From a bacterium (GTDB lineage Bacteria; UBP7; UBA6624): a stretch of 20,522 nucleotides of DNA. The stretch covers positions 1 through 20,522 of the forward strand of contig JACNFQ010000091.1 in the NCBI GenBank assembly GCA_014384545.1. Reading direction: 5' to 3'. The notes beneath the pieces were generated by a model. The model did no database searches. It was not told the origin of the DNA and saw nothing but the letters and a program-made list of their open reading frames with translations. The translations under genes and the position numbers were made by a program. Position 1 is the stretch's first letter. Each line of letters starts with the position of its first letter. Positions 1 through 14,542 of this stretch are shown here, one piece after another.

Positions 1-165
1 TTAGATATGCCCAAATCGATGCGCTCAGCGACCCCAGGAATGGATGCACAATCGGTAGGACATGTCGTTATTCTGCTCTTGATTGTTCTGGGGAATCTGG
101 GACATTTCTTGGGGGGCAAACGGGACGATAGTAGCCGGCTCCGTGCATTAAAGGAGGAGAGATGA
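1..165 (+). CDS. Uncharacterised membrane protein, family 'D', first copy (3' end only)
   Basis: Partial gene entering from the left edge, read in frame from base 1 to the TGA at 163-165; 54 residues are visible. They contain a GMDAQS motif, one hydrophobic segment (VVILLLIVLGNLGHFLGG) and a basic tail ending RLRALKEER. The same layout ends the complete gene at 2373-3245 (GMDAQS, IVLGNLGHFFGKKK, RLSALKVKK), so the two are clear paralogues. The stop overlaps the next gene's ATG (ATGA), and the end of this gene carries that gene's strong ribosome binding site. I see the C-terminal membrane anchor and a probably cytoplasmic basic tail. The function is unknown and I know of no characterised homologue. 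Confidence 0.85.
   Translation, partial: LDMPKSMRSATPGMDAQSVGHVVILLLIVLGNLGHFLGGKRDDSSRLRALKEER
152..158 (+). promoter_or_regulatory. Strong ribosome binding site for the first A gene
   Basis: AAGGAGG lies 3 to 10 bases upstream of the ATG at 162, inside the last codons of the preceding D gene. It is one of the best Shine-Dalgarno matches in the window, whereas most neighbouring genes rely on weak sites plus stop/start overlap. Confidence 0.7.
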
Positions 166-944
166 CCTTTCCTTATGGTGTCGTTTCACCTCTTACTTCT
201 GAGGGGGTTGGGATTTGGGTTGCGGCGATACTCACTTTAGCGATATTCTCTTTCTTGTGGAAGGACAACCCTTTTTACCGATTTGCAGAACATCTTTTTG
301 TGGGGGTTTCCAGTGGTTATTTCCTTTCAGTTTACTGGTGGACCGTTCTCAAACCCAACTTGTATGAGCCGTTGGTAAATGGATTTGAGGCTTTGGGTGC
401 TAGGGATGTTTCGGGCGCTTTTGGGTTTGTAGAGAACCCGAATGGTGGATTGATGGTGGGCGAGGAACCCCAACTTAGAGTTCTTGTTCCTCTCGCTTTG
501 GGGCTGTTCATTCTTCTCATATTTGTGGCCCCTAAATATGCATGGCTCTCAAAGATCTCTTTTGCATGGTATATCGGTGTAGCGAGTGGATTTGCGATTC
601 CTACGGCTTTGGCGACTCGAGTCCTTCTCCAAATGGAAGGTGCCTATTCAGATTTTTGTGGATTGAACGCCACGTGCGCTGCCGCTACGGGCATCGATCC
701 CATTTCCGCCACATCAGGGTTCTGGATCAATGCCGTTGTTATGTTGGTGGGCACTTTGTGTGCGCTTGCCTACTTCTTTTTCTCATTACCCACAAAAGGA
801 GCCTTGCGGGTAATGAATCGTGTGGGCATAGGGTTTTTGATGGTCTCTTTTGGAGCCTCTTTTGGGTATACCGTGATGGCTCGCATCTCACTCTTGATAG
901 GTCGTTTTCAGTTCCTTATCCGTGAGTGGCTGGAGATTGCATGA
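162..944 (+). CDS. Uncharacterised polytopic membrane protein, family 'A', first copy
   Basis: 260 residues with about six hydrophobic segments (roughly 16-34, 43-60, 106-124, 133-152, 187-208 and 220-247). A block near the N-terminus reads GIWVAAILTLAIFSFLW, then DNPF and FAEHLFVG. The C-terminal end reads FGASFGYTVMARISLLIGR. Both blocks recur in the paralogue at 3242-3982. A loop before the fifth segment has Cys166 and Cys172 (C-x5-C), also kept in the paralogue. The ATG follows an AAGGAGG ribosome binding site at 152-158 and overlaps the upstream stop by 4 bp, so the start is firm. I do not recognise a characterised family. The position between D and B suggests a subunit of a membrane complex, which is inference. 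Confidence 0.85.
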   Translation: MTFPYGVVSPLTSEGVGIWVAAILTLAIFSFLWKDNPFYRFAEHLFVGVSSGYFLSVYWWTVLKPNLYEPLVNGFEALGARDVSGAFGFVENPNGGLMVGEEPQLRVLVPLALGLFILLIFVAPKYAWLSKISFAWYIGVASGFAIPTALATRVLLQMEGAYSDFCGLNATCAAATGIDPISATSGFWINAVVMLVGTLCALAYFFFSLPTKGALRVMNRVGIGFLMVSFGASFGYTVMARISLLIGRFQFLIREWLEIA

Positions 945-1720
945 TTGCTGTAAAGGAAGGTGTGGGGCCAGAGTTTGTTCTCTTGATGCTTTTCGTCGTT
1001 TCTCTCCTTTACTTCTTGGGGCAAGCACGGAAAGGTGTCCACTTCAAAATCAGAAAGATTGCTGGCTTGGATGCTGTGAATGAAGCGATCGGTCGTGCCA
1101 CGGAGATGGGGCGAAGTATACTCTACTCAACAGGTCTGGAAGTAGCAAGCCATATCGCTACGATAGCCAGCCTGACGATTCTATCCCGTGTCGCTCGTCG
1201 GGCAGCTCGGTATGGGACAAGGCTCCAAGTCCCCTCCTTTGACCCTGTGGTGATGACATTAGCTCAAGAAATGGTGCGTGATTCTTTTCTCCAAGAGGGT
1301 CGTATCGAGGAGTTTAGTCCCACAGATATCTTCTATCTCTCGGGGGAACAGTTTGCCTACACAGCAGCCGTGGAGGGCATTATGGTCCGAGAGAAACCCT
1401 CTACAGTTTTCTTGATGGGATACTTCTATGCTGAGAGTCTCCTCTTAGCAGAGACAGGGAATGCGATTGGAGCGATTCAGATTGCGGGTAGTGATGCTGT
1501 AACCCAACTCCCCTTCTTTATCGTTTCTTGCGACTATACACTTATTGGTGAGGAACTTTATGCGGCAAGTGCTTACCTTTCGGGCGACCCCATCATCATG
1601 TCTAGTCTCAAGGCACAGGACATGAGCAAAGCAGTGATTTGGGTCTTGATGATTGTGGGTGGAGTCGCCGCCTTTGCAGGCTCACCTTTCTTCCTTGCGT
1701 GGATGGGGGGGATTTCGTGA
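941..1720 (+). CDS. Uncharacterised bitopic membrane protein, gene 'B' (DUF6754-like)
   Basis: 259 residues from ATG 941, which overlaps the previous TGA (ATGA) and has GGAG 5 bases upstream; an upstream in-frame GTG at 926 is less likely. One hydrophobic segment lies at about 10-28, followed by a basic stretch (GQARKGVHFKIRK), a globular middle of about 200 residues, and a second segment at about 235-256. Middle motifs include GLDAVNEAIGRATEMGR, QVPSFDP, GEELYAASAYLS and SLKAQDMSKA. Positive charges after the first segment suggest the middle lies in the cytoplasm. From memory these motifs resemble the uncharacterised DUF6754 family, which I could not verify. It is single copy here and flanked by A and C in overlapping frames. 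No enzymatic motif is evident. Confidence 0.8.
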   Translation: MIAVKEGVGPEFVLLMLFVVSLLYFLGQARKGVHFKIRKIAGLDAVNEAIGRATEMGRSILYSTGLEVASHIATIASLTILSRVARRAARYGTRLQVPSFDPVVMTLAQEMVRDSFLQEGRIEEFSPTDIFYLSGEQFAYTAAVEGIMVREKPSTVFLMGYFYAESLLLAETGNAIGAIQIAGSDAVTQLPFFIVSCDYTLIGEELYAASAYLSGDPIIMSSLKAQDMSKAVIWVLMIVGGVAAFAGSPFFLAWMGGIS

Positions 1721-2376
1721 AAACCAAGGGACCTGTCCTCGTTGCATTCTTGGCTGGAATGTTGATGATTTCAGAGTATTTTCTGGATGTGGATTGGCTT
1801 GGGAAGATGGCGACTTGGATTCAGAAGTACTACATCATTATCGCTGCGTTTGCGTTGGTCATTGGTGTCACGAGCTTGGTGCGACTCCATGCGACGAAGA
1901 TTCGAGACAAAAACAAGGGATGGGGTTTCTCTTTGGTCACAATCATAGGGCTATTGGCGATGATGATTACAGGTCTAGGCTTAGTTTCCCAAGATCCGGA
2001 GAGCAATCTTCCTTTACGGGGTACAGACCATCCTGCCAATCTTTGGTTGTATGACCACATCCAAGTCCCTTTGGGAGCCACAATGTTCTCTTTGTTGGCG
2101 TTTTTTATTGCGAGTGCGGCGTACCGTGCCTTTAGAGCCCGCAGTCCCGAGGCTACCCTATTGCTTCTCTCTGCCATCATTGTCATGTTGGGGCAAGTTC
2201 CTGTAGGTGAAGCGATCTGGGACGGACTTCCTCAGGTTAAGGATTGGTTGTTGGACAACATCAATACAGCGAGCAAGAGGGCGATCATGATGGGCGTGGG
2301 TCTTGGGATGGTCAGCACGGCTCTTAAGATCATCTTTGGGATTGAAAAGACCTATTTGGGCGGGGGGGATGGATGA
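1717..2376 (+). CDS. Uncharacterised polytopic membrane protein, gene 'C'
   Basis: 219 residues starting at GTG 1717, which overlaps the TGA of gene B (GTGA). An open frame extends further upstream, but only inside gene B. About six hydrophobic segments are visible (roughly 5-23, 38-58, 69-90, 120-140, 150-168, 187-207). Between segments three and four is a polar stretch containing LPLRGTDHPANLWLYDH. The protein ends in a glycine-rich tail (YLGGGDG) encoded by a run of seven G bases. No known family is recognised. Tight coupling to B upstream and D downstream suggests it is an integral subunit of the same complex; that is inference from layout only. Confidence 0.8.
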   Translation: MKTKGPVLVAFLAGMLMISEYFLDVDWLGKMATWIQKYYIIIAAFALVIGVTSLVRLHATKIRDKNKGWGFSLVTIIGLLAMMITGLGLVSQDPESNLPLRGTDHPANLWLYDHIQVPLGATMFSLLAFFIASAAYRAFRARSPEATLLLLSAIIVMLGQVPVGEAIWDGLPQVKDWLLDNINTASKRAIMMGVGLGMVSTALKIIFGIEKTYLGGGDG

Positions 2377-3245
2377 ACGCTTGGGATCGTTTTCAAGCGA
2401 TAGATCGCCGTTGGATCTTCTTGCTCCTTCTGTTGACTACCGCATACCCTTTGCTAAATCCAGTTGGATTACCGATTAGCCCTGGAAAGTACACCACGGC
2501 AGCTTACGAGAGGATTAGCGAGCTAGAGGAGGGTGATGCGGTCTTCCTGTCCTGGGATTTTGATCCATCAAGCCAAGCTGAGTTGTTGCCTACGGCGGAT
2601 ATGGTCTTGCACCATCTCTTTGGCAAAGGGGTCAAGGTCGTCGTCGTTTCTTTGTGGCCTGCAGCACCTTCTCTAGCCCAAAATACGCTCCAACGCATCT
2701 CTTCTGAATACCCTCAAATTCAAGAAGGGGAAGATTGGGTCAATTTGGGATTCAAGCCTGGTGGGGATGTCGTCGTCAAGGCACTAGGCGATGATATTGC
2801 CTCGATTTTCCCTGCCGACCAAAAGGGGCGCAATCTGGCCGACATTCCAGTTATGTCGGGGCTAACCTCGTTGACAGAATTTGACCTACTGATTGATTTG
2901 GCTGCCGGGGGAACTGTTGAAATCTATGTGCAACAAGCTGTAGAGAGATTGTCAACGCGTGGGGAATCATTAGATTTAGTAGCTGCCGTAACCGGGGTCA
3001 TGATTGCCGACTATTATCCCTTCTTGGATTCAGGGCAGTTGAAGGGATTGGTGGGTGGGTTGCGTGGTGCTGCTGAGTATGAGTTGGCTATGGGACGCAA
3101 GGGAGACGGAACGAAAGGGATGGATGCCCAGTCTTTTGCTCATATGGCGATTATTTTCTTTATCGTTTTGGGCAACTTGGGACATTTCTTTGGAAAAAAG
3201 AAAGAGGGTGAATCAAGGTTGAGCGCCCTAAAGGTGAAGAAATGA
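2373..3245 (+). CDS. Uncharacterised membrane-anchored protein, family 'D', complete second copy
   Basis: 290 residues from ATG 2373, overlapping the previous TGA (ATGA) with a G-rich ribosome binding site just upstream. Layout: a short charged N-terminus (DRFQAIDRRW), a hydrophobic segment at about 15-32, a globular domain of about 210 residues, a second hydrophobic segment at about 252-271, and a basic tail. Positive charges at both ends suggest that the termini are cytoplasmic and the middle domain periplasmic. The middle has alternating hydrophobic strands (GDAVFLSWDF, VKVVVVSLWP, DVVVKALGDD, EFDLLIDLAAGG) suggestive of an alpha/beta fold. There is no catalytic motif I can name. The C-terminal 45 residues match the partial gene at 1-165, so this family is duplicated locally. 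Confidence 0.85.
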   Translation: MNAWDRFQAIDRRWIFLLLLLTTAYPLLNPVGLPISPGKYTTAAYERISELEEGDAVFLSWDFDPSSQAELLPTADMVLHHLFGKGVKVVVVSLWPAAPSLAQNTLQRISSEYPQIQEGEDWVNLGFKPGGDVVVKALGDDIASIFPADQKGRNLADIPVMSGLTSLTEFDLLIDLAAGGTVEIYVQQAVERLSTRGESLDLVAAVTGVMIADYYPFLDSGQLKGLVGGLRGAAEYELAMGRKGDGTKGMDAQSFAHMAIIFFIVLGNLGHFFGKKKEGESRLSALKVKK

Positions 3246-3982
3246 ACTTTATCTTTGGTATCGCTTCTTTTGAGGGTGCAGAGGGCATTGGCATCTGGTT
3301 GGCTGCGTTCTTGACCCTAGCTATCCTCTCTTTTCTATGGGGGGATAACCCCTTCTTCAAGTTTGCCGAACATCTCTATGTAGGGATCGGTGCGGGCTAT
3401 TTGGTGGTCGTCGCTTGGCATAATGATATCGCCACAAATGTCGTTGCTCCTGTTAGAGAGGGGTACGCTCTCGTTCAGGGGGGGGATGGTGCGGGTTGGT
3501 CAAACATCTTGAACCCTATCTTGGCGTGTGTGGTGGGTTCGTTCCTCTTCTTTCCTGTGGTCGCACCTAAACTCCGTTGGCTAACGAGATACGCATTCGC
3601 TTTTATTCTGGGATCATTCTCGGGAATCAAAGCAGCGGTGGTGGTCAAAGCAAACTTGGTGGTACAAGCCGAAGCAACGATACGGAAAGCGTGTGCCGTT
3701 TCCAAGCGGTGTGCCGAAGATGCTGGGTTGGTCCATACGCCAGAGATTGGTGCCATTGTCAGTGCGGTGGTGATCCTCGTTCTCGTGCTGTGTGGACTCG
3801 TCTATTTCTTCTTTTCCTTAGAGCATAAGGGTCCGGTCCGTGTCGTTGCTCGCATTGGGATTTATGGCTTGATGGTTGGGTTTGGTGCCTCTTTTGGGCT
3901 TACGGTGATGGGGAGGGTCTCCCTCTTGATAGGGCGGCTCCAATTCCTTTTTGAAGATTGGTTGGGGATTTTGGGCGGGTGA
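3242..3982 (+). CDS. Uncharacterised polytopic membrane protein, family 'A', second copy
   Basis: 246 residues, a paralogue of the protein at 162-944. The N-terminal block (GIGIWLAAFLTLAILSFLW, DNPF, FAEHLYVG) and the C-terminal block (GASFGLTVMGRVSLLIGRLQ) align without gaps, while the loop after the second membrane segment is shorter and unrelated. Cys151 and Cys157 keep the C-x5-C spacing of the first copy. The ATG overlaps the D stop (ATGA) with AAGGTG a few bases upstream. A run of eight G bases (3478-3485) lies inside the gene. The D-A order repeats the D-A order at the left edge, so the pair was probably duplicated as a unit. Function unknown. Confidence 0.85.
   Translation: MNFIFGIASFEGAEGIGIWLAAFLTLAILSFLWGDNPFFKFAEHLYVGIGAGYLVVVAWHNDIATNVVAPVREGYALVQGGDGAGWSNILNPILACVVGSFLFFPVVAPKLRWLTRYAFAFILGSFSGIKAAVVVKANLVVQAEATIRKACAVSKRCAEDAGLVHTPEIGAIVSAVVILVLVLCGLVYFFFSLEHKGPVRVVARIGIYGLMVGFGASFGLTVMGRVSLLIGRLQFLFEDWLGILGG
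3478..3485 (+). repeat. Homopolymeric G8 tract inside gene A2
   Basis: Eight consecutive G bases within the coding frame, in the loop after the second membrane segment. Similar G8 tracts occur at 12132-12139 (GspI-like) and 19805-19812 (GspK-like). They follow partly from heavy use of the GGG glycine codon. Slippage here would truncate the protein. Confidence 0.6.
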
Positions 3983-4029
3983 AAGACCTCCCTTGGGGAC
4001 AATTCCGTCTCTTTGTTTCTAGCCCGTGA
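3979..4029 (+). CDS. Possible 16-codon leader/coupling ORF between gene A2 and phoH
   Basis: GTG at 3979 overlaps the A2 stop as GTGA. It opens a frame encoding MKDLPWGQFRLFVSSP that stops at TGA 4027-4029, and that stop overlaps the phoH start (GTG 4026), again as GTGA. It fills exactly the 43-base gap that otherwise breaks the chain of overlapping genes. phoH has no good Shine-Dalgarno sequence of its own, so a ribosome ending here could restart on phoH. This is inference; a short ORF of this kind can arise by chance. There is no recognisable peptide family. Confidence 0.35.
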   Translation: MKDLPWGQFRLFVSSP

Positions 4030-4946
4030 CCGAGACCCTTGTGCGTGTAGAACTTCAGGGTGAGGACGAGATAATCTCCCTCTTGGGTGTGGGTCATTCC
4101 CATGCCCGAACGATCCGAAAGGAGATGGGGCTTTCGTTGGGGGGTGATAAGGACGGGGTAACGATTCAAGGGGAAGAGGGTAAGGTTTTCCAACTCCGAA
4201 CGAGGTTGGTGGAAGTCTTAGAGAGTATTCGATCCGCTTCTCCCCCCGGTCCAAAGGGTGTCCTGAGGGCGCTTTTAGGTCCCCCTCTCCTAGAGAAAGG
4301 AATCGTCATTCGTGGGCGGAGTTTCTCTCCGGTTAGTGGAGGACAATGGGACTATCTCCGTGCGATGCAAGAGCATCCTCTCACTCTTGTGACGGGACCA
4401 GCGGGTACAGGAAAAACGTTCTTGGCGGCTGCATGGGGGTGTCAACAACTCCACGAAGGGCGGGTAGATCGGCTCATTCTTTGTCGTCCCGTCGTTGAAG
4501 CAGGAGAGAACTTAGGGTATCTTCCGGGTGATGTAGAGGCTAAAGTTGCCCCCTATTTTCGCCCTCTCCATGACGCATTGGTAAAGACACTCGGACACCC
4601 TAGGACCCGTAGACTGACCCAAGGAGGGCAGATTGAGATTGCCCCCCTAGCTTATATGCGTGGTCGAACGCTTGAAAACGCTTTTCTGATTCTAGACGAA
4701 GCGCAGAATACGACTGTGGGGCAGATGAAAATGGTCCTTACTCGTATGGGGCAAGGGGCTATCGTTGTCGTTACAGGGGATCCTTCTCAGTGTGATTTGC
4801 CCAAGTCTGAAGAGAACGGATTGAGGGTAGCGTTATCTCGGCTAAAGGGCGTAGAGGGGGTTGCTTCATTGACATTAGGAAGAAGGGATATCGTGAGACA
4901 TCCTTTGGTGGCGAGAATAGACCGCGCTTTTGAGGATCGGGCTTAG
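4026..4946 (+). CDS. phoH: PhoH-family ATPase (PhoH/PhoL type)
   Basis: 306 residues, close to the usual length of this family. An N-terminal KH-like domain (about 1-70) precedes a P-loop NTPase domain. Walker A is GPAGTGKT (124-131), Walker B is LILDEAQN (221-228) and a TGDPSQCDLP motif lies at 250-259. Other family signatures are RPVVEAGENLGYLPGD (154-169), RGRT (212-215) and RHPLVARI (291-298). Members are cytoplasmic ATPases linked to RNA metabolism, and their genes typically sit next to ybeY, as here (two genes downstream). The start is GTG 4026 because an in-frame stop lies just upstream at 4020-4022; GTG 4041 is an alternative. There is no clear ribosome binding site, and the start overlaps the stop of a 16-codon ORF. 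Confidence 0.95.
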   Translation: MTETLVRVELQGEDEIISLLGVGHSHARTIRKEMGLSLGGDKDGVTIQGEEGKVFQLRTRLVEVLESIRSASPPGPKGVLRALLGPPLLEKGIVIRGRSFSPVSGGQWDYLRAMQEHPLTLVTGPAGTGKTFLAAAWGCQQLHEGRVDRLILCRPVVEAGENLGYLPGDVEAKVAPYFRPLHDALVKTLGHPRTRRLTQGGQIEIAPLAYMRGRTLENAFLILDEAQNTTVGQMKMVLTRMGQGAIVVVTGDPSQCDLPKSEENGLRVALSRLKGVEGVASLTLGRRDIVRHPLVARIDRAFEDRA

Positions 4947-4950
4947 GGGC

Positions 4951-6546
4951 ATGAACAAGAAGTACTTGTTGTTCGCCTTGGGGCTCCTCTTCGCATCAGC
5001 TACAACAGCGCGTATCGTTCTCGCACTCCATTATCCCGTGGATGGTCGCTTGGGCGAGTCTCTCACTGTGGATGTGGTTGCGGATCGAGCGATGGTCTTG
5101 CGTTCCGAAGATGGATGGCGTCGTGTGGTGCCTGGAGAGGTCATTATCCCCAAGGGAATCGCTTTGGAGGAGGAGGACCTCCGTATCTTGGACGAAGCGG
5201 GGCGAGTACGCAGAAAGGATGAGAGTGTTCGAGCCTTCGCAGACATCATCTATTTCTTGTTGCTCTTGATCTTGGTGGGACTAGCTGTCTTCCGGATTGG
5301 TGATAGGAGCGTCAAGCATATCAACTTGCTTTTCTTGGGAGTCTTTGGCTCCTCCCTCATATTCTTGGAGCTAGCTTTGGTCTTTTGGGGGTATGGTTTT
5401 CCCCCCATTCATAGGTTGGCGTTGCCCTTGGCGACGTCTCTGCTCGTTCTTATTGTGATTCATCCTTTCCGATTTGCAGTTTTATTCACGCTCCTGCTTC
5501 TCTTTCTTCTAGCTCCCCTATTGCCCAACTTAGGTATCGGAGAGATTGTCGGGCTTTTGGGTGCGCTAGGGGCGGTCGTTGGGATTCGTGATAGGAGTCG
5601 GGTGAAATACGCTGAAGCGGTCGGCCATTTCACGCTTTTTCTTTACCTATTAGCAACGCTAGTTGCTCTCTCCAATCAAGGAATGGATACCCCAATCAAA
5701 GAGATTCTCTTAAAGGGTGTCGTCTTTGCGGTTATGACCGGTGCTCTTGTCTTTGCGTCTACGGCATCGTTATTGGCGGCTGCCCGTCACTGGTTCGGAA
5801 TCCTGACACCTGATTACCTTATTGAAGTAGCCGCACCCGATCACCCTCTGTTACGAGACCTGGCTAAGAGGGCACCTGGTACGATGTCCCATGTCCACGC
5901 TGTTCAGGAAATAGCTGAAGTGGGAGCAGGAGCATTGCTCTCTTTGGGCGGAATGACGCCTGCTACGCTAAACCCTTGGCTGGTGCGTGTAGGTGCTTTG
6001 TACCACGATGTGGGAAAGATGACACGCCCCCACTTTTTTAGCGAGAATCAGATTGAAGGTGAAAACCCTCACGAAGATCTCTCCCCCAAGATGAGTGCTC
6101 GCCTCCTTATTTCACATGTCAATTCTGGCGTAGAGATAGGGAAGAAGTACAAGTTGCCCGAAGTTATTTTAGGCATTATTCGGTCCCACCACGGAACGAC
6201 TTTGGCTGGTCACTTTCATCTCTTGGCGACAGAAATCGCTGAGAAACGAGGAGAAGAGCATCCATCAGAGGAGGATTTCCGTTATTCAGGTCCATTACCC
6301 AAGACAGTGGAAGAAGTCGTCATTATGGTAGCCGATTCGGTCGAAGCGACGAGTCGTGCCTTGAGAGATGAAGACCCCGAAGATATCCGTGCGAAACTCC
6401 TAGAGGTACTTGAAGCACGTTGGGAAGAAGAGCAGTTGGCAGAAGCGGAAATTACGATTGCTCAGTTCAGCGTTCTTCGCGATGCTGTGGTGGAGGAAGG
6501 TGTCACCAGGCACCATCGTCGCGCGGGCTACAAATCCAAGGCGTGA
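4951..6546 (+). CDS. 7TM-HD family cyclic dinucleotide phosphodiesterase (PgpH-like), short outer domain
   Basis: 531 residues from ATG 4951; an in-frame TTG at 4930 inside phoH lacks support. A signal anchor (about 4-22) is followed by only about 70 extracytoplasmic residues, about seven membrane segments (about 99-285), and a cytoplasmic HD domain. Metal ligands visible are His314, HD at 352-353 (YHDVGK), His389, His413/414 (SHHGTT) and Asp462 (VADSVEA). NPHEDLSP is the family's NPH motif. Characterised PgpH proteins hydrolyse c-di-AMP and are about 700 residues long, with a large 7TMR-HDED domain. Here the middle of that domain is missing, while its last part (VVPGEVIIPKG, then EEDLRILDEAG) remains. 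The catalytic side looks intact. Position between phoH and ybeY is the common arrangement. Confidence 0.9.
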   Translation: MNKKYLLFALGLLFASATTARIVLALHYPVDGRLGESLTVDVVADRAMVLRSEDGWRRVVPGEVIIPKGIALEEEDLRILDEAGRVRRKDESVRAFADIIYFLLLLILVGLAVFRIGDRSVKHINLLFLGVFGSSLIFLELALVFWGYGFPPIHRLALPLATSLLVLIVIHPFRFAVLFTLLLLFLLAPLLPNLGIGEIVGLLGALGAVVGIRDRSRVKYAEAVGHFTLFLYLLATLVALSNQGMDTPIKEILLKGVVFAVMTGALVFASTASLLAAARHWFGILTPDYLIEVAAPDHPLLRDLAKRAPGTMSHVHAVQEIAEVGAGALLSLGGMTPATLNPWLVRVGALYHDVGKMTRPHFFSENQIEGENPHEDLSPKMSARLLISHVNSGVEIGKKYKLPEVILGIIRSHHGTTLAGHFHLLATEIAEKRGEEHPSEEDFRYSGPLPKTVEEVVIMVADSVEATSRALRDEDPEDIRAKLLEVLEARWEEEQLAEAEITIAQFSVLRDAVVEEGVTRHHRRAGYKSKA

Positions 6547-6920
6547 CGATGACCGTTCTTGGGGGAGAAAAGCGCGTTGTATTATGGTGTGAACGGCTCT
6601 ATTCCTCTCTCTGTCCTTGTAGGGAAGAGATCGTTATCTCCTTCCTTGAGAAAGAAGAGATGGCAAGAGCGAATCGGGAGTTTCGGGGAGGAGAGGGGCC
6701 TACCGATGTCTTGACGTTTTCTATGGGGGATGGGATGGAGGGGGAGATCCTTATCTGGTTGGGAGCGAACGAGGAAGGTGAAGAACCCGATTTCTGGGCA
6801 CTAGACCGCATTATTCATGGTTTTCTCCATTTGAAGGGTATCCATCATGATACAGAGCTAGAGTGGGAAATAAATGGTGAAGAGCATAAGAAACTCTTGG
6901 CGATTGCCCTAACTCCATGA
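6543..6920 (+). CDS. ybeY: Endoribonuclease YbeY (16S rRNA maturation)
   Basis: About 125 residues from GTG 6543 (GTGA overlap with the previous stop); ATG 6549, with AAGG 7 bases upstream, is an equally good start giving 123 residues. The zinc-binding motif H-x3-H-x5-H is visible at 90, 94 and 100 of the 123-residue form (HGFLHLKGIHH). The upstream signature NREFRGGEGPTDVLTF is typical of the family. YbeY is a single-strand-specific metallo-endoribonuclease acting in 16S rRNA 3'-end processing and ribosome quality control. It is shorter than the common 150-160 residues, the shortfall lying in the N-terminal part. It is the third gene of the usual phoH, HD, ybeY set. Confidence 0.95.
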   Translation: MTMTVLGGEKRVVLWCERLYSSLCPCREEIVISFLEKEEMARANREFRGGEGPTDVLTFSMGDGMEGEILIWLGANEEGEEPDFWALDRIIHGFLHLKGIHHDTELEWEINGEEHKKLLAIALTP

Positions 6921-8173
6921 CCCTGTGGAAAGGTCTTATTGCGGGCACCTGCCTATTGCTATCGGCACTCTTCTCCTATGCAGAAGTGAGTGTATTGGGG
7001 TCCTCCCGTAGAGAGATTGCTTCAGGGAAGGGGAGAGATGCCGAAAACCTAAGGAAGTTAATGGTGGAGGCAGAGCGTCTTTTGATGGTCATCATGAGCG
7101 GCTATATCCTTGCTAATCTGGGATTTGCTCTCCTTATGGCTCAGGGAGTCTTGGACTCCAAGGATGAACTTTTCCCCACTTGGTCCGAAAGTTGGGTCTT
7201 GGTGGCAGTGACGGCTTTTGACTTCGTATTGGTAACGCTATTTGGTGAGATTCTCCCCCGTGTCTTTGCGGTTCGAGAACCGTACAAGACAGCAAAGAAA
7301 CTCACACCGTTTCTTTCGGGGGCAACGCTATTCTTGAGTTGGCCTTCATACCTATTATCTGTAGCAAACCATCAGATACTCTCTCGTTTCGGTGTCAATC
7401 CTCTTAGCCGGGGAGAGAGGTTAGAGAAAGAAGTGGAAGCGCTGGGGCAAGCAGGCGTCTTGGGAGAGGGTGTCGGCATAGAAGAGGGAAGGATGATTCG
7501 ACGTGCTTTGCGTTTTGAAGAGCTCACCTTAAGGGATGTGATGACACCACGTGTTGAAGTGGATGGCTTTGAAGCGAAGTTGACGCTTGCCCAAGCAGCT
7601 CGTTCATTGGAGAATGGACGGAGTCGATACCCCATATTTGAAGGTTCAATTGACCATACAGTAGGGGTTCTCCATGCTAAGGATATCTTGGGCGGGGAAG
7701 AGTCTGAAGCGTCTTTGGGCTCGCTATGTCGTCAAGTGATTGCCCTCCCTGCTGAAACTGCGTTGGGGGCTGCGTTTGGAATGATGCGCGGTCAACGAAA
7801 ACATATCGTTGTCGTTCTAGATGAGTTCGGGGGGATGGATGGGATTGTTACGATGGATGATATCTTAGAAGAGGTGGTAGGAGAGATAGAAGATGAGCAT
7901 TCGGGTGAGGACCCCGGTTTGGTTCATGGAGGACCGGGCGAGGTAATCCTTCGACCTGCTCAGCGAGTCGATGAGGCTATGGAGGCTTTGGGGCTGTTCC
8001 CGGGTTCTCCGCCCGATGATTTGGTGGGACCTCTTTTCTACCGTTTGCATGGACAGATTCCCAAGGAAGGAGAGCGTGTGTCGTGGGAGGGTGCGAGGAT
8101 TGAAGTCCTAGCGATGGAGGGTACCCGAATCAAGAGATTGAAGATGGTTGTAGAGGATTCAGAGCAATCGTGA
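6917..8173 (+). CDS. CNNM/CorC-family transporter-like protein with CBS pair and CorC domain (hemolysin C-like)
   Basis: 418 residues from ATG 6917, overlapping the ybeY stop (ATGA). The N-terminal DUF21/CNNM membrane domain (about 1-160) contains the GEILPR motif (110-115). It is followed by a CBS pair, opening with MTPR (209-212) and continuing through RYPIFEGSIDHTVGVLHAKDIL and VVVLDEFGGMDGIVTMDDILEE, and by a C-terminal CorC/HlyC domain (about 335-412) with LVGPLFYRLHGQIPKEGE. Family members act in the inner membrane, in magnesium or cobalt efflux or related ion homeostasis, and are often loosely called hemolysins. The architecture is complete. A second, shorter CNNM gene overlaps its end, so the two may work as a pair. 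Confidence 0.92.
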   Translation: MTLWKGLIAGTCLLLSALFSYAEVSVLGSSRREIASGKGRDAENLRKLMVEAERLLMVIMSGYILANLGFALLMAQGVLDSKDELFPTWSESWVLVAVTAFDFVLVTLFGEILPRVFAVREPYKTAKKLTPFLSGATLFLSWPSYLLSVANHQILSRFGVNPLSRGERLEKEVEALGQAGVLGEGVGIEEGRMIRRALRFEELTLRDVMTPRVEVDGFEAKLTLAQAARSLENGRSRYPIFEGSIDHTVGVLHAKDILGGEESEASLGSLCRQVIALPAETALGAAFGMMRGQRKHIVVVLDEFGGMDGIVTMDDILEEVVGEIEDEHSGEDPGLVHGGPGEVILRPAQRVDEAMEALGLFPGSPPDDLVGPLFYRLHGQIPKEGERVSWEGARIEVLAMEGTRIKRLKMVVEDSEQS

Positions 8174-9135
8174 TTCTCTTTTCGGTTTTCCTCTTGGCTG
8201 CACTATCTGGTCTCTATACAGCGTTGGAGGTTGCCTTGCTCCAAACGGATAGGCAACAACTTGGTGAGAGGGCAAGGCGAGGCGAGATCATCGCTAAGCG
8301 TATTGAGGGGTGGTTGGGAAAACCAACTGTTCTCTTTGCAACGGTATTGGTTTCCATTAACCTCTTTAACCAAGCTTCGGCATCCCTTGTTTCATATTGG
8401 ATTCACCATGGTGGTTTCACTTCGTGGCAGATGGGGATTTCTGATGTGGGGTTTACTCTCTTTATCCTCGTTTTTGCTGAGGGGGTGCCAAAAGCTCTTG
8501 CATTGAGGCGTCCCGATATGTTGGCACGATTAGCTCCGAGTTGGTTAGATGGTGCGGGTTGGGTTTTGAGACCTCTCATTTCTTTCTTCTCCTGGTTGCC
8601 TCGTGTTTTGGGTGGTGGGGGAGAAGGTCTGTCGAAAGTCTATCGCATGCGTAGGGACGAGGTTAGGTCTGTCTTGGGTCAAGCGCTAAGTGCTCGTGTA
8701 CGAGCTCCAGAATCGACACGCATATTGGGATTGCTCTCACTAAGAGAGATACCCCTAAGTGCGTGTATGGTCGGTACCGAAAAAGTGATAACAGTGGGTC
8801 CAAACCTCTCTAGAGACGAGGTCATTGCTCGGATAAAAGAGACGGGGCATTCTCGCTTACCCTTTATCTTTGAGTCCTTAGATGATTCTCGAACGTATCT
8901 CCATGCCAAGAGCCTCCTCAAGGCTGAGGGTGACTGGAAAGCGATGCTACAACCCTTAGAGACTTTGCCCTATGATACGCCCCTATCTGAGGCACTTGAG
9001 ATGATGAGGGTGGGCCCCGCGCTCGTCTTGGTCGAAAAAGAAGGAGAGAGGGTTGGCGCTGCTTTTCTTGAGGATATTCTAGAGAGGGCTTTGGGCACGA
9101 TGGGGGATGAGTATGACGGTGTGGAGTCGATTTGA
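8170..9135 (+). CDS. Second CNNM/DUF21 membrane protein, degenerate CBS region, no CorC domain
   Basis: 321 residues from GTG 8170, overlapping the previous stop (GTGA). The membrane domain occupies about 1-150, with AEGVPKALALRRP (103-115) in place of the usual GE-x-x-PK. Downstream is a CBS-like region where the usual MTPR entry is replaced by MVGT (200-203). Two half-recognisable CBS motifs follow (SRLPFIFESLDDSRTYLHAK and ALVLVEKEGERVGAAFLEDIL). The protein ends shortly after the second CBS motif, so the CorC/HlyC domain of its neighbour is missing. Loss of canonical residues suggests a regulatory or heterodimer partner of the upstream CNNM protein; this is inference. Its own ion transport activity is uncertain. 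Confidence 0.85.
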   Translation: MILFSVFLLAALSGLYTALEVALLQTDRQQLGERARRGEIIAKRIEGWLGKPTVLFATVLVSINLFNQASASLVSYWIHHGGFTSWQMGISDVGFTLFILVFAEGVPKALALRRPDMLARLAPSWLDGAGWVLRPLISFFSWLPRVLGGGGEGLSKVYRMRRDEVRSVLGQALSARVRAPESTRILGLLSLREIPLSACMVGTEKVITVGPNLSRDEVIARIKETGHSRLPFIFESLDDSRTYLHAKSLLKAEGDWKAMLQPLETLPYDTPLSEALEMMRVGPALVLVEKEGERVGAAFLEDILERALGTMGDEYDGVESI

Positions 9136-9938
9136 AAGGATCGATTCTCGTCCATGGGGGAGCGGGTCGCTATCGTTCTTCACCAGAGAAGATTCAGGAA
9201 TTGCTCAACCGATCGGTAGAAGCGGGTTTGGCAGCGTTTGAACGAGGAGCACTAGAGAGTGCTGTTGTCGCTGTTGAAGTGATGGAAAGCTCGGGTTTGC
9301 TAAATGCGGGCAAAGGAGGAAGCAGGCAGGCTGATGGGACCATAAGGATGGATGCCTCTGCTGCGACAGGGCAGTTGTTTGGATCGGTCATAGCGATGCC
9401 GGGGTGTTGGCCTGCTTCACGGTGTGCGGCTCGTTTGTTGGCGACACCTTATCCCATACGGGCTGGTGAGAGCGTGGTGCGATGGGCCCGGCAAGAAGGA
9501 TTCACTCAATGGGAGCCCGATGCGGATGCGTATGCTCATTGGGAGAAAAAATCAGCACCGTCACCAGGAACAGTTGGCGCTGTGGTCGTTGTGGATGGTG
9601 TCCCTGCAGTGGTCACTTCCACAGGGGGGCGAGAGCGGGCAGCAGAGGGGCGCGTGGGTGATACAGCTCTTCCTGGTTGTGGGAGCTCGGCTGGGAAGAG
9701 TGGAGCTGTTTCATGGACCGGGATTGGAGAGGCAATACTCCGAATGCGAATGGCAGATTGGACGCGGGGTCAGTTGAAAGACTGCAGCCCACAAGAAGCC
9801 GCGGAACGTGCTGTTGAAAAGTTAGAAAGTGACGAGCTCAACGAAGGAGAGGGGGGCGTCATCATCATCTCTAGCGAGGGTGAGATGGGTTGGGCATTCA
9901 ACACGGAAGCGATGGCTGTAGCATGGGGGAAGAAGTGA
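9132..9938 (+). CDS. Isoaspartyl peptidase / L-asparaginase-type Ntn-hydrolase (threonine nucleophile)
   Basis: 268 residues from TTG 9132 (TTGA overlap with the previous stop), beginning MKGSILVHGGAG, the family's opening motif. Others are NAGKGG (59-64), MDAS (73-76), SPGTVGA with the expected autocleavage site before Thr147, STGG (163-166), RVGDT (174-178) and TGIGEA (196-201). Family members autoprocess into alpha and beta chains and hydrolyse beta-aspartyl peptides or asparagine. The usual length is about 310-330 residues; this one is shorter, mostly before the nucleophile, where the variable linker lies, and at the C-terminus. There is no signal peptide, so it should be cytoplasmic. Its place between a CNNM gene and a prepilin peptidase is unusual. 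Confidence 0.9.
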   Translation: MKGSILVHGGAGRYRSSPEKIQELLNRSVEAGLAAFERGALESAVVAVEVMESSGLLNAGKGGSRQADGTIRMDASAATGQLFGSVIAMPGCWPASRCAARLLATPYPIRAGESVVRWARQEGFTQWEPDADAYAHWEKKSAPSPGTVGAVVVVDGVPAVVTSTGGRERAAEGRVGDTALPGCGSSAGKSGAVSWTGIGEAILRMRMADWTRGQLKDCSPQEAAERAVEKLESDELNEGEGGVIIISSEGEMGWAFNTEAMAVAWGKK

Positions 9939-10819
9939 TCGTTTACCCTCTAGAGGTTGTCGCTGCCCTTTTCGGCTCTTTGGTGGGGAGTTTTCTGAAT
10001 GTGGTGGCGCTTCGAACGATAACGGGGGAGAGTCTCTCTCATCCACCGTCTCACTGTCCAAGATGCCTTCATCCTATTCGGTGGTTTGATAATATTCCTC
10101 TCTTTTCATGGCTCCTTTTGGTAGGAAAGTGTCGAGATTGTCGGGGTCGTATCTCACCCGCTTACCCCATCACCGAAGCGGTTACAGCCCTTTGGGCAGG
10201 TGCAGTCGTTTCGCTTGGGTTGCCTTTCGTCCCTTCTCTTCTCCACTTCGGTGCTGGGGCATCTCTCATCGCTGCCGCTCGTGTTGACTTTGCAACGACA
10301 TTATTGCCCCGAAAACTCCTCCTCTTTTCGCTGGGGTCCCTTCTCCTTCTGGCTCTCGCTGAAGCGGACTCTCTATCTTCTTTGGGGTGGCGTCTGCAAG
10401 GTGTTTTGGTCGTTGCAGGTGCATTGGCTTTGGTCCGCTTTCTCTTTTCACGATGGATGGGGAGAGAAGCGATGGGAGGTGGTGATGTGGAGTTGGGTGT
10501 TGTGATTGGGTTTTGGCTGGGCGCTGCTGGCGGTGGTCTCGCTTTGGGGGTCGCTGTCGTTACGGGGGCAGGTGCGGGAGCGATTTGGGCTTGGATAAGC
10601 CACAAAGAGAAGGATGGGGGCGTGGGATTGGAGCTTCCGTGGGGACCATTCTTGGTGGGAGGCGCTTTCCTCTCTCTTTTGGGAGGTGAAACGCTTCAAA
10701 CAATCTTTGAAACGGGACGAGATACTTTATTAGACCATCGACAGATCGTTCTACCTATATCACTCCTTCTTCTTTTCTGGATGGGACGGCGTTTGGTGGC
10801 GATAAAGAACCGGACTTGA
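9935..10819 (+). CDS. gspO: Prepilin peptidase / N-methyltransferase (type IV leader peptidase, GspO/PilD)
   Basis: 294 residues from GTG 9935 (GTGA overlap with the previous stop, GGAAG just upstream); ATG 9923 is an alternative. The N-terminal motif GSLVGSFLNVVALR and two zinc-type cysteine pairs (Cys41/44 and Cys66/69) mark the cytoplasmic methylase-side domain. The A24 aspartic peptidase residues are Asp118 (VDFATTLLP) and Asp184 (GGGDVELG), equivalent to the two catalytic aspartates of PilD and TcpJ. About seven to eight membrane segments follow the cysteine domain. The enzyme cleaves prepilin leaders after glycine and methylates the new N-terminus in the inner membrane. Its substrates are presumably the five pseudopilins encoded directly downstream. 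Confidence 0.93.
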   Translation: MIVYPLEVVAALFGSLVGSFLNVVALRTITGESLSHPPSHCPRCLHPIRWFDNIPLFSWLLLVGKCRDCRGRISPAYPITEAVTALWAGAVVSLGLPFVPSLLHFGAGASLIAAARVDFATTLLPRKLLLFSLGSLLLLALAEADSLSSLGWRLQGVLVVAGALALVRFLFSRWMGREAMGGGDVELGVVIGFWLGAAGGGLALGVAVVTGAGAGAIWAWISHKEKDGGVGLELPWGPFLVGGAFLSLLGGETLQTIFETGRDTLLDHRQIVLPISLLLLFWMGRRLVAIKNRT

Positions 10820-10846
10820 CGTCTTTAAAGGTTTTTCGTGTATACT
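10816..10846 (+). promoter_or_regulatory. Possible sigma70-type promoter at the head of the pseudopilin genes
   Basis: TTGACG at 10816-10821 and TATACT at 10841-10846, separated by 19 bases (longer than the ideal 17). It overlaps the end of the prepilin peptidase gene. A transcript from here would start around 10853, excluding the TTG at 10816 as a start but keeping the AGAGGAGAAG ribosome binding site at 10861-10870. It is the only promoter-like pair I noticed inside the gene chain. Confidence 0.35.
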
Positions 10847-11874
10847 CGTCAGGTTTGAAAAGAGGAGAAGCAAAGATAATCCGACCATCCAACAGGGGTT
10901 TTACTCTGACAGAGATGCTGGTTGTGGTGGGGATAATGGGCATCCTTTTGGCTCTTTCGGTGCCTGTCCTAACTAAGAATGCTCCTCGTCGACAACTTGA
11001 TGGGTATGCCCTTAGAGCGTTGGGGGATTTGCGATGGGCGTTCCAAAAAGCAACTTCTGAGGGTGAAGACTTGGTTCTTGAGGTGATTGGGCATTACGAC
11101 AACGGTAGAACGACCCATCCTTGGCCTTTGGAGGACACGATTCGGGTTTGGAGGCGAAAGGATTGGAATCAATACCGAAAGTGCTCCAACCATTTACTGA
11201 ACACCACCTGCGGAAATGTGACACAGACGGTAGGTGCCTACGATACACTTCCTCCTTACTTAGTTTTTGATCTGTCCCCAAGTAGCCCTCTGGATAGTGA
11301 TGGGGATGGGTTGATTAGTGATGATGAACTCCCTGTACCCTTACGGGAGTATGTGCGAGAGGATTATAGGGATCCCCCTGCCTTGTTGAGCATCCCTGAA
11401 TATCAAGCAGTTATCAACCATCCCAAGTTCAACCGTATTCGGACGATTCCCCGTGAGATTGACCTGATTGCTCCCAAGGTGGATGTGACCAACTACGATG
11501 GAACGAACTATAGAGATGTGGTGACATATGCTTTTATTCGTCCCACTGGTTCGGGTATTCGTTCCGTGGGCATTTTGGAGTTTGCTTTTATGTTGCGCCC
11601 CAAACATTTCAATCAACTCTCTTGGGACCAAACGACGAACGAATGTGGCCTAAAGGCTCAGATTTATAGCCAATCTAATGGGCGGACCGTTCAACTCCTC
11701 TTGGCAACAGGAAGTTTGCGCATGGTTTCGGCTGCCCCTACCCAGTACATGAGTCTTTGGGACAACCAAGGGCAACCCACACCCGTCAAGCTTTATCTAG
11801 ATTCTATCTGTGACGGCTCATCGATTCCTGTCGGTGCACCTTACGAATATAACAGGGGTGGCGGTTGGCAATGA
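10816..11874 (+). CDS. gspH: Pseudopilin, GspH/FimT-like (enlarged, calcium-type loop)
   Basis: Up to 352 residues. The class III prepilin signal RG/FTLTEM, with Glu5, is followed by a hydrophobic helix (LVVVGIMGILLALSVPVLT) and the FimT/GspH-like QLDGYALRALGDLRWAFQKA. The usual length is 150-200 residues; the extra sequence is C-terminal and includes an EF-hand-like loop, DSDGDGLISDDE, from residue 160. There are four cysteines. The start is uncertain. TTG 10816 (TTGA overlap) gives a 28-residue leader and TTG 10855 gives 15. A good Shine-Dalgarno (AGAGGAGAAG, 10861-10870) is instead positioned for the ATA codon at 10876, which would give an 8-residue leader. It is a minor pseudopilin of a type II secretion-like tip complex, processed by the upstream peptidase. 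Confidence 0.82.
   Translation: MTSLKVFRVYSSGLKRGEAKIIRPSNRGFTLTEMLVVVGIMGILLALSVPVLTKNAPRRQLDGYALRALGDLRWAFQKATSEGEDLVLEVIGHYDNGRTTHPWPLEDTIRVWRRKDWNQYRKCSNHLLNTTCGNVTQTVGAYDTLPPYLVFDLSPSSPLDSDGDGLISDDELPVPLREYVREDYRDPPALLSIPEYQAVINHPKFNRIRTIPREIDLIAPKVDVTNYDGTNYRDVVTYAFIRPTGSGIRSVGILEFAFMLRPKHFNQLSWDQTTNECGLKAQIYSQSNGRTVQLLLATGSLRMVSAAPTQYMSLWDNQGQPTPVKLYLDSICDGSSIPVGAPYEYNRGGGWQ
10861..10870 (+). promoter_or_regulatory. Ribosome binding site pointing to a non-standard ATA start of the GspH-like gene
   Basis: AGAGGAGAAG is a strong Shine-Dalgarno match. The next in-frame codon at normal spacing (8 bases after GGAG) is ATA at 10876-10878; there is no ATG, GTG or TTG at that place. Translation from there would give a leader of typical length ahead of the cleavage glycine. 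Confidence 0.35.
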
Positions 11875-13391
11875 GGGGTAGGGTCGCGATGTTCCATAGC
11901 CGAGGGTATACTTTGGTAGAGATATTGGTCGCTATTGCGATTCTGGCAATCGTTTTACTCCCCATTCTCAGTGCGATTGGTCAAGCCGTCCGTGGCACTC
12001 AAGAAAGTAGGAATGTCACCGAAGCACTCCATTTGGCCGAAGAGAGGATGAATACATTGTGGGACCTATTTGGTCCCCAATCGGAGTTTTATGGGGGTGG
12101 TGTCCCCTTTGATTTTGAAGGGGGATCTGCAGGGGGGGGCGTCTTTTATCCTGGGAGCAATCCTGACCCCGCCCTAGAGGATAGATTGAACACCATTTAT
12201 GGTTCTTCAGGTCAGTGGGCAGGGGGTCAGTTTGTTGATATTGCCCAACCACTGAACAACGACCCCGATTGGCGCGAGCCGGCAATGGCTGTCAGTCCTT
12301 CGGTCTATGGTTGTCTCGCTTCTGAGAGTGCAGACTGGCTTTTCAACGACAATGTGCATATCTGTATAGACCCCAACGACCCGAACAATCTCATTGCTGG
12401 TTTGGGGCGTGACCTGAGTGGAGAGAAATACCGCGTAGCTATGGCGGTTCTTGCAGCCCGACTGGATTCTCTAGATGCAGTAGCGCATTATCTCCCTGGT
12501 CTCCATCCAGATGGTGCGCGTTGGGTCCCTCTAGCTTCAAGTGGTACACCTTGTTCTTCGGTGGTTGATGGGGATTGCCCCAAGATAGATGGGGTGGAGG
12601 ATTTTGGTGAGATTGTGGACAACGCTTCTCTCCAAGAGCGTACGCAGTTTTCTTGTGCTGGAAAGAGCGCGGGAGTGGATGGAAGGGTGAACTATCCGTG
12701 GTGGGATTTCGGTTATGTCGCCGACAATTGGGACAGTCGTGATAGCGACTGGTTGCAAACTTCTGGGTATACTTTTGCGGGAGACGGCTCTGCACCGAAT
12801 AGGTCGTGGCGGATGTTTGTGGTGGGAGGTGGTACAGTTCACCCCAATCACACACCCCAAACGACCCAAGACAATCAGGAAGAGTGTACTTTCTTGGGTA
12901 ACATTCCTGCAACGCAGATTGATATTGCCCGTGCGCTCCAACCTTTTTCTCGGTTCCGCCGAGAGACTTCAATGGCAACGGTCTATTGGCCTATGGATGC
13001 GCATGACCCTACCCAAGACCCCTATGGTCAAGGGGCGATTTCTCCAGATGATGCTCGGTATTACCGTTCTGGTTCGTTGACATTGGGGCGAGCGGTGCGC
13101 GTCGTCGTAGCTTGGCGGGCAGGAGATGGATGTCCGATGACACGCGGTCTCGTAACGACCTCTCGTTGCGGTGATCCCACCAATCCCTTGAGAATCTCTT
13201 TGGGTTTGACTCAGAGAATTATCCCCTTGAACAAGAGCGTGGAACTAAGGGCTTTTATTCCTGATGTGGACCAAGACCCCTGCGACCTAGAGCCCCATGC
13301 CAACGACCGTACAAACCGCCTCTCTAACGGCAATTGGGATCTAGACCCCAACTTTCAGCACGAGGAGTGCTGGCACATTTCAGGACTATAG
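11871..13391 (+). CDS. gspI: Pseudopilin, GspI/PilV-like (greatly enlarged)
   Basis: 506 residues from ATG 11871, overlapping the previous stop (ATGA). ATG 11889, with an upstream AGGG, would give a more typical 6-residue leader (MFHSRG). The cleavage motif is RG/YTLVEI with Glu5, followed by LVAIAILAIVLLPILSAIGQA and the GspI-type ALHLAEERMNTLW. Usual GspI proteins are about 120-150 residues; here more than 350 extra residues follow, rich in Trp, Asp and Gly, with ten cysteines. Near the C-terminus is a partial calcium-type motif, DVDQDPCD. A run of eight G bases (12132-12139) lies in a Gly-rich stretch. It should be a minor pseudopilin of the tip complex, partnering with the GspJ- and GspK-like proteins downstream. 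Confidence 0.82.
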   Translation: MRGRVAMFHSRGYTLVEILVAIAILAIVLLPILSAIGQAVRGTQESRNVTEALHLAEERMNTLWDLFGPQSEFYGGGVPFDFEGGSAGGGVFYPGSNPDPALEDRLNTIYGSSGQWAGGQFVDIAQPLNNDPDWREPAMAVSPSVYGCLASESADWLFNDNVHICIDPNDPNNLIAGLGRDLSGEKYRVAMAVLAARLDSLDAVAHYLPGLHPDGARWVPLASSGTPCSSVVDGDCPKIDGVEDFGEIVDNASLQERTQFSCAGKSAGVDGRVNYPWWDFGYVADNWDSRDSDWLQTSGYTFAGDGSAPNRSWRMFVVGGGTVHPNHTPQTTQDNQEECTFLGNIPATQIDIARALQPFSRFRRETSMATVYWPMDAHDPTQDPYGQGAISPDDARYYRSGSLTLGRAVRVVVAWRAGDGCPMTRGLVTTSRCGDPTNPLRISLGLTQRIIPLNKSVELRAFIPDVDQDPCDLEPHANDRTNRLSNGNWDLDPNFQHEECWHISGL

Positions 13392-13395
13392 GAGG
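13390..13395 (+). promoter_or_regulatory. Ribosome binding site of the GspG-like gene
   Basis: AGGAGG, starting inside the stop codon of the GspI-like gene and 4 bases before the ATG at 13400. It marks one of the few junctions here without gene overlap, and may allow this gene to be translated more strongly than its neighbours. Confidence 0.6.
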
Positions 13396-13399
13396 ATTT

Positions 13400-14542
13400 A
13401 TGAAGAATCGTGGATTTACATTAACGGAGTTGTTGGTAGTGATTGTCATTATCGGCATTCTGATTACTCTCGTTGTCCCCAATGCAGTCAGGGCGCGTGA
13501 AAAAGCTAAAGAAGCTGCTGTAAAGACGGGGATTGGTCTTATTGAGACCGCTCTTGAGGGCTTTGCTCAAGGCAACTCGGGCTTTTACCCGGGCGTTGCA
13601 TACGACAGCCAGGGTGTTTACACCATTCCTAATAACGACAATGGTCTGCAGCGGTCAGGTTCAACGGATTACGCCACGGGGTTGGGTCCACAGGCTTCGA
13701 ATGGTGTGATTGGTGGTCGGATGGATTGTATGAAAGACCCCCAAAAGTGTGGTGGTACGACGCCCGCCAATGATGCGGCTTGCCAAGCCCAATATGTGCC
13801 TCCTACGGCTACATGTTATTTCAACGATGTCCATCGTTGGGACAGGTTGGTTTTAGAGGGAACGATTTCGGAATACCCAAAGAACCCTTTCATGGGGACA
13901 AAAGAGAGACCCCGTGCGATGTTTAATGTGTTCTCGACCACTTTGCGCCGAGCTGCAGCAGGTACAGACTTTGTGGGAACATGTCTTTCTACCATGAACC
14001 CCGATCCGGCAAATGGCTGGAACACTTACCTTTACTACAACAGTCAGTCGGCAGATGGCACAGCGGATGGGCGGTTGGGCTACCCGCTATCAGTTCAGGG
14101 CGGTACACCATGTGATGTTGTCGATGCGAACGATGCCAACCATTGGATGTCCAATCCCGATGATTATCCCGTGGGAGACTTTGCCTACATTCCTTTGGAC
14201 CCGGTAGAACCACCCAGAGATTTTGATGGGGATGGAGTCTTGGACGAATCAGCCTACATGGCGTTCGTTCAGGGGTATTGGTTGATTGGGTATGGGGCCG
14301 CTTCCTCTTGGCGCGCTGAAATCTATGATGTCGATTTGATTCAGGCGAATGGTGGTTTGAGATTCCAGGCACCTTTGGGACGAATCCAAGCCGCCAATAC
14401 AGCAACTTGGCAAAGTAATTGCACAGAGGTAGAACGGCGTGCTATGCGAGCCCTTTTTGGGGCGATTGTTCTGAAAGGAACTGATTACACAGAACAAGCA
14501 ACACCCGGTGATATCCAAGTACAGAGTAACAACTGCCCTTGA
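13400..14542 (+). CDS. gspG: Pseudopilin, GspG-like (enlarged, calcium-type loop)
   Basis: 380 residues from ATG 13400, preceded by AGGAGG (13390-13395), after an 8-base gap. The leader is the minimal MKNRG, then FTLTELLVVIVIIGILITLV with Glu5, followed by VPNAVRAREKAKEAAVKTGI, which is the GspG/PilE-type helix. GspG proteins are usually about 140 residues and bind calcium in a C-terminal loop. Here a large extension contains DFDGDGVLDE from residue 274 and a YPKNPFMG motif reminiscent of the GspG DPWG region. There are eight cysteines. It is the best candidate in this cluster for a major, shaft-forming subunit, but the size is odd for that role, so a minor-pilin role is possible. Confidence 0.8.
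   Translation: MKNRGFTLTELLVVIVIIGILITLVVPNAVRAREKAKEAAVKTGIGLIETALEGFAQGNSGFYPGVAYDSQGVYTIPNNDNGLQRSGSTDYATGLGPQASNGVIGGRMDCMKDPQKCGGTTPANDAACQAQYVPPTATCYFNDVHRWDRLVLEGTISEYPKNPFMGTKERPRAMFNVFSTTLRRAAAGTDFVGTCLSTMNPDPANGWNTYLYYNSQSADGTADGRLGYPLSVQGGTPCDVVDANDANHWMSNPDDYPVGDFAYIPLDPVEPPRDFDGDGVLDESAYMAFVQGYWLIGYGAASSWRAEIYDVDLIQANGGLRFQAPLGRIQAANTATWQSNCTEVERRAMRALFGAIVLKGTDYTEQATPGDIQVQSNNCP

Follow-up and report, generated by a model that had tools for sequence, protein, structure and literature searches.

A DUF6754-containing membrane protein module, duplicated as a unit and co-inherited with a GlmL-clade ATPase, in little-studied bacterial phyla

Gene content of the locus

We identified six adjacent genes, all read in the same direction and all encoding membrane proteins, at positions 1-3982 of the window, the whole 20,522-nucleotide stretch of DNA analysed here. 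Their products fall into four families, which we refer to as A, B, C and D, and the genes follow one another as the 3' end of D1, A1, B2, C2, D2 and A2:

1-165, plus strand: 3' end of D1, encoding a C-terminal transmembrane (TM) helix; its residues, GMDAQSVGHVVILLLIVLGNLGHF, match the tail of the D family
162-944, plus strand: A1, polytopic, with five or six predicted TM helices and no Pfam or NCBIfam match over the cut-off
941-1720, plus strand: B2, DUF6754 (PF20539, E 4e-105), predicted to hold a cytosolic Rossmann-like domain between two TM helices (AF2 pLDDT 91.8)
1717-2376, plus strand: C2, six-TM protein with both termini inside; its GTG at 1717 overlaps the B2 stop codon
2373-3245, plus strand: D2, predicted to hold a periplasmic Rossmann-like domain between two TM helices (AF2 pLDDT 96.6, pTM 0.90; topology from charge)
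3242-3982, plus strand: A2, the second polytopic A protein and final gene of the module, with phoH 44 nt downstream

At all five module junctions in the window, the stop codon of one gene and the start codon of the next overlap by 4 nt (ATGA at 162, 941, 2373 and 3242, GTGA at 1717). Since every junction takes this form, the likely starts of the B and C genes are 941 and 1717; the listed reading frame of B2 begins with a GTG at 926, and the ATG at 941 overlaps the A1 stop codon by 4 nt. The overlaps and the list of reading frames agree with the original prediction of six consecutive, overlapping membrane-protein genes. A1 and A2 are 43% identical.

The region 3' of A2 (window 4026-9135) contains phoH (4026), a 7TM-HD yqfF-like gene (4930), a ybeY-like gene and two CNNM/CBS genes. 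The order phoH-yqfF-ybeY also occurs in a relative from the same family (genome G001).

A duplicated B-C-D-A unit

The repeat unit is B-C-D-A, duplicated as a whole. The earlier description of the locus, a D-A pair duplicated around single B and C genes, is an artefact of where the window starts, which is mid-operon and near the 3' end of D1. The accompanying guess that further copies lie to the left proved right, as a profile search of the same genome located a second DUF6754 gene (367 bits) on contig C100, within the gene order TPR-DnaJ protein, 146-aa ORF, Y, GlmL, X, B1, C1 and D1. The window genes are the second BCDA copy together with the end of the first. Although the ends of the window and of C100 have just TTAG in common, in frame, we infer that the two adjoin in the genome, and this is supported by the operon of the family relative, in which Y-GlmL-X-B1-C1-D1-A1-B2-C2-D2-A2-phoH lie on one contig. 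Features outside the window are as follows:

L021:2-724, minus strand (contig C100, same genome): the rest of D1, cut at the contig end
L021:5097-5378, minus strand: Y of the window genome, assigned by position and resemblance
L048:3750-4133: Y at a further locus

Both family members encode, 5' of Y, a long TPR protein whose C-terminal part is a DnaJ-like domain (L021:5812-9024, minus strand, and L022:2442-5513).

Family assignments

B is a clear member of PF20539 (DUF6754), scoring 351 bits against a cut-off of 27. The Pfam model describes a domain of unknown function and omits C, D, A, X and their co-inheritance. Pfam and NCBIfam profile searches with A, C and D returned nothing over the cut-off, and no credible Pfam family was found for D across 74 homologues. 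The label 'unassigned' given earlier to these membrane proteins thus holds for A, C and D but not wholly for B; as had been expected of an undescribed system, no characterised complex was matched by the profile searches. Profile comparison gave no homology between A and C. An in-frame TGA in two copies, a possible selenocysteine codon, is the stop codon at the gene end, as read in L130.

The open-access literature searched here (as distinct from subscription papers) contains no mention of DUF6754, PF20539 or PF13941, the last being the family matched by the GlmL-like protein discussed below, and literature searches on GlmL returned nothing about this module. Overall, some of the component domains are already catalogued, and the whole system appears to be undescribed.

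Distribution and co-inheritance

The module occurs in many little-studied phyla. We detected DUF6754 in 81 (more than a quarter) of 290 genomes drawn from across bacteria, and in none of the 14 well-known genomes included as controls. A scan of a genome collection confirmed DUF6754 in at least 578 stretches; the best 80 of these loci belong to Poribacteria, Zixibacteria, WOR-3, Eisenbacteria, Planctomycetota (including anammox bacteria), Armatimonadota and others. Searches of viral contigs and of plasmids found no DUF6754. Omp85 is present in 271 of the 290 genomes and 79 of the 81 carriers, and is uninformative as a diderm marker.

C, D and A follow B in that order at 101 of the 109 B loci with room downstream, and several of the eight exceptions involve a neighbour that is split or undetected. 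This order is not due to chance, and it upholds the proposal that the genes travel together. Across the surveyed B-C-D-A loci, 41% of module junctions overlap. One to three tandem BCDA copies occur per locus, and a carrier may have up to seven B genes. A concatenated tree tends to group copies of equivalent position across species and not within a locus, with L107 and L096 as partial exceptions, indicating that the tandem subtypes are old. Evolutionary distances covary among B, C, D and A (r 0.68-0.81), at a level reached in none of 500 trials in which paralogues were swapped within tandem loci. The covariation demonstrates that the four are inherited as one unit; it does not demonstrate contact. 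Clustering of gene neighbourhoods recovered Y and lineage-specific synteny, with no pathway and no conserved neighbour that hints at a substrate.

Soluble partners encoded outside the window

The original prediction concerned the membrane genes alone; a GlmL-clade ATPase and the proteins X and Y are encoded outside the window and hence were missed. With these three, the module comprises seven families. X was found in 77 of the 81 DUF6754 carriers and in none of the 209 non-carriers, counting copies encoded away from BCDA, and the GlmL clade (E 1e-60) in 73 carriers and two non-carriers, although these genomes are related by descent and the counts are not independent. The partners are sometimes encoded elsewhere on the carrier genome (for example in G011, G036 and G006). 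In a Neomarinimicrobiota locus (L088), GlmL and X form a single fused protein directly 5' of B-C-D-A. Nearly all carriers encode one full-length X, although B reaches seven copies, which fits a shared cytosolic component. Four carriers have no strong X match. A divergent GlmL-X pair (L132:2113-5027) was observed in G032, a carrier that lacks a standard X.

The GlmL-clade protein matches PF13941 of the ASKHA/MutL superfamily (E 6e-130) and contains the conserved ATPase motifs DCGSTTTKA, GVDIGGATTD and GSGG. It therefore shares the ASKHA ATPase superfamily and intact nucleotide motifs with GlmL/MutL (PF13941; NF040745, NF040744, TIGR01319), but differs in being longer (~600 aa), in falling below all three NCBIfam cut-offs and in its link to X and DUF6754. 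GlmL has a proposed role in assembling or reactivating glutamate mutase as its chaperone, and the superfamily membership would be consistent with a protein that works for glutamate mutase or ornithine aminomutase, encoded beside unrelated membrane genes by chance. Its scores argue otherwise: the GlmL of the family relative (L022) reaches 231.8 bits against a cut-off of 475 for NF040745 and 177.9 against 204 for TIGR01319 (glmL_fam), and the Or-4 NCBIfam model gives 218 against 600. Glutamate mutase (PF06368) exceeds the cut-off in six of the 290 genomes, of which G117 is the single carrier; the window's own genome (79% complete) gave no match. Given the low scores and the mutase in one carrier, a mutase accessory is unlikely; with the strong co-occurrence with DUF6754 and X and the GlmL-X fusion also against it, we consider a chance neighbourhood very improbable.

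X is a barrel-sandwich/KOW-like protein. A role for X as a biotin or lipoyl carrier was considered (PF00364, E 4e-5) and rejected, as the hairpin lysine is not invariant (ENVGLFGWFRS in L033). Y is a small protein encoded mostly 5' of GlmL and clustered in 13 loci; profile searches assigned it to no Pfam family. Mean column identity is 57% for X, 46-53% for B, 38% for D, 37% for C and 33% for A, so that conservation is highest in the predicted cytosolic parts, X and B.

Predicted topology and folds

Confident AlphaFold models of B and D each contain a TM helix, six strands alternating with helices, and a second TM helix, and helices and strands follow one another identically in the two domains. 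The positive-inside charge profile places the B domain inside and the D domain outside. Some B homologues carry fn3 domains N-terminal to the first TM helix, on the outer side, in agreement with the charge-based topology. Six TM helices are predicted for C and five or six for A. The models, charge profile and fn3 domains thus support the earlier assignment of a cytoplasmic domain to B and a periplasmic one to D, with A and C as polytopic partners. The common helix and strand order raised the question of whether B and D are homologous; profile comparison detected no sequence homology, either at full length or after trimming to the domains.

This topology may reflect a signalling relay, in which D, together with the fn3 domains of B where these occur, would sense the outside, A and C would transmit, and B would alter GlmL-X as the output and not the engine. 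Folded domains on both membrane faces, the outer-side fn3 domains, several divergent BCDA copies beside one common cytosolic partner, and the position of the conserved charges in A and C, mostly close to predicted cytosolic loops, are all consistent with such a relay. However, no kinase, cyclase or DNA-binding output domain recurs beside the module, and two polytopic subunits exceed what a relay needs. We regard signalling as possible, and as the second choice among the functions considered.

Fold searches with B and D gave generic Rossmann/DHS-like matches with no family standing out. B aligned with the Sir2 fold at Z 11.2 (B only), and SDR and other folds scored nearly as high. Both domains align with the CODH/ACDS epsilon subunit, a DHS-like NAD/FAD fold (Z 9.4-9.7, near the level of unrelated Rossmann folds), from which they differ in showing no detected sequence relation and in being membrane-anchored on opposite faces. 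B also resembles RCK-gated transport systems (TrkA/KtrA/MthK), whose membrane complexes likewise carry a Rossmann-like domain on the cytosolic face, and aligns with the MthK RCK domain at Z 10.2 (113 residues, rmsd 2.8), although many unrelated Rossmann folds match as well. The resemblance is generic: B had no TrkA_N Pfam match up to E 5, the B alignment contains no GxGxxG, and A and C do not match Trk or Ktr.

Alternatively, GlmL-X may be an assembly or reactivation chaperone of BCDA or of its cofactor, with BCDA acting as a membrane enzyme or redox complex. The ATPase is after all a relative of GlmL, the barrel-sandwich of X weakly resembles the N-termini of NqrA and RnfC, and the domains of B and D are similar to the CODH epsilon fold (Z about 9.5). 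Against this, the fold matches are at the generic Rossmann level, B and D are not homologous by sequence, inspection by eye revealed no conserved motif for binding a metal or a flavin, and just one of the 81 carriers has glutamate mutase over the cut-off. Chaperoning of a membrane enzyme seems doubtful to us and ranks third, behind signalling and our preferred reading, ATP-dependent transport.

Proposed function

The architecture of the module is well supported; its function we infer. A single GlmL-X beside several BCDA paralogues, together with the stronger conservation of the cytosolic parts, suggests that the paralogues share one ATPase/adaptor, which acts on B. We propose that GlmL-X is the common cytosolic ATPase/adaptor for several BCDA complexes, most likely in ATP-dependent transport (probability roughly 0.35). 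A and C would form the membrane core, of about 12 TM helices, of a heteromeric inner-membrane B-C-D-A complex, to which D would add a periplasmic and B a cytosolic Rossmann-like domain, each anchored between two TM helices. The GlmL-clade ASKHA ATPase and X, plus the small protein Y, would be common to every BCDA complex in a cell, and GlmL-X would act on the strongly conserved cytosolic domain of B. ATP turnover by GlmL-X may then drive or reset a conformational change that passes through A and C to D, resulting in movement of a substrate, with the A and D parts setting specificity.

Several observations weigh against transport. A and C match no characterised transporter, and few conserved charged residues lie inside predicted TM helices. 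The covariation and gene order would also be expected from duplication of the whole unit without physical contact. Four carriers have no strong X match, and neighbours beyond the module give no hint of a substrate.

If the transport reading is true, the module would represent a new way to couple ATP to membrane work. The bolder proposal of a new class of membrane machine, in which paralogous BCDA complexes with Rossmann-like domains on both faces are served by one ASKHA-type ATPase via the adaptor X in a new form of ATP-driven transport, is one that we hold to be rather unlikely. The module ties a GlmL-clade ATPase to a setting outside B12 enzymes, and co-inheritance makes the role of the ATPase and X for a membrane complex testable.

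Other genes in the window

A prepilin peptidase gene (PF06750/PF01478) heads a cluster at 9890-16044. It is followed by genes with N-methylation motifs at 10816, 13334 and 14539, with a pilin-like reading frame at 11865 between them, and we interpret the region as a gene cluster resembling those for type II secretion or type IV pili. An unusually large reading frame (1305 aa, 16031-19948), which has no Pfam match, occupies the position of a GspK-like minor pseudopilin.
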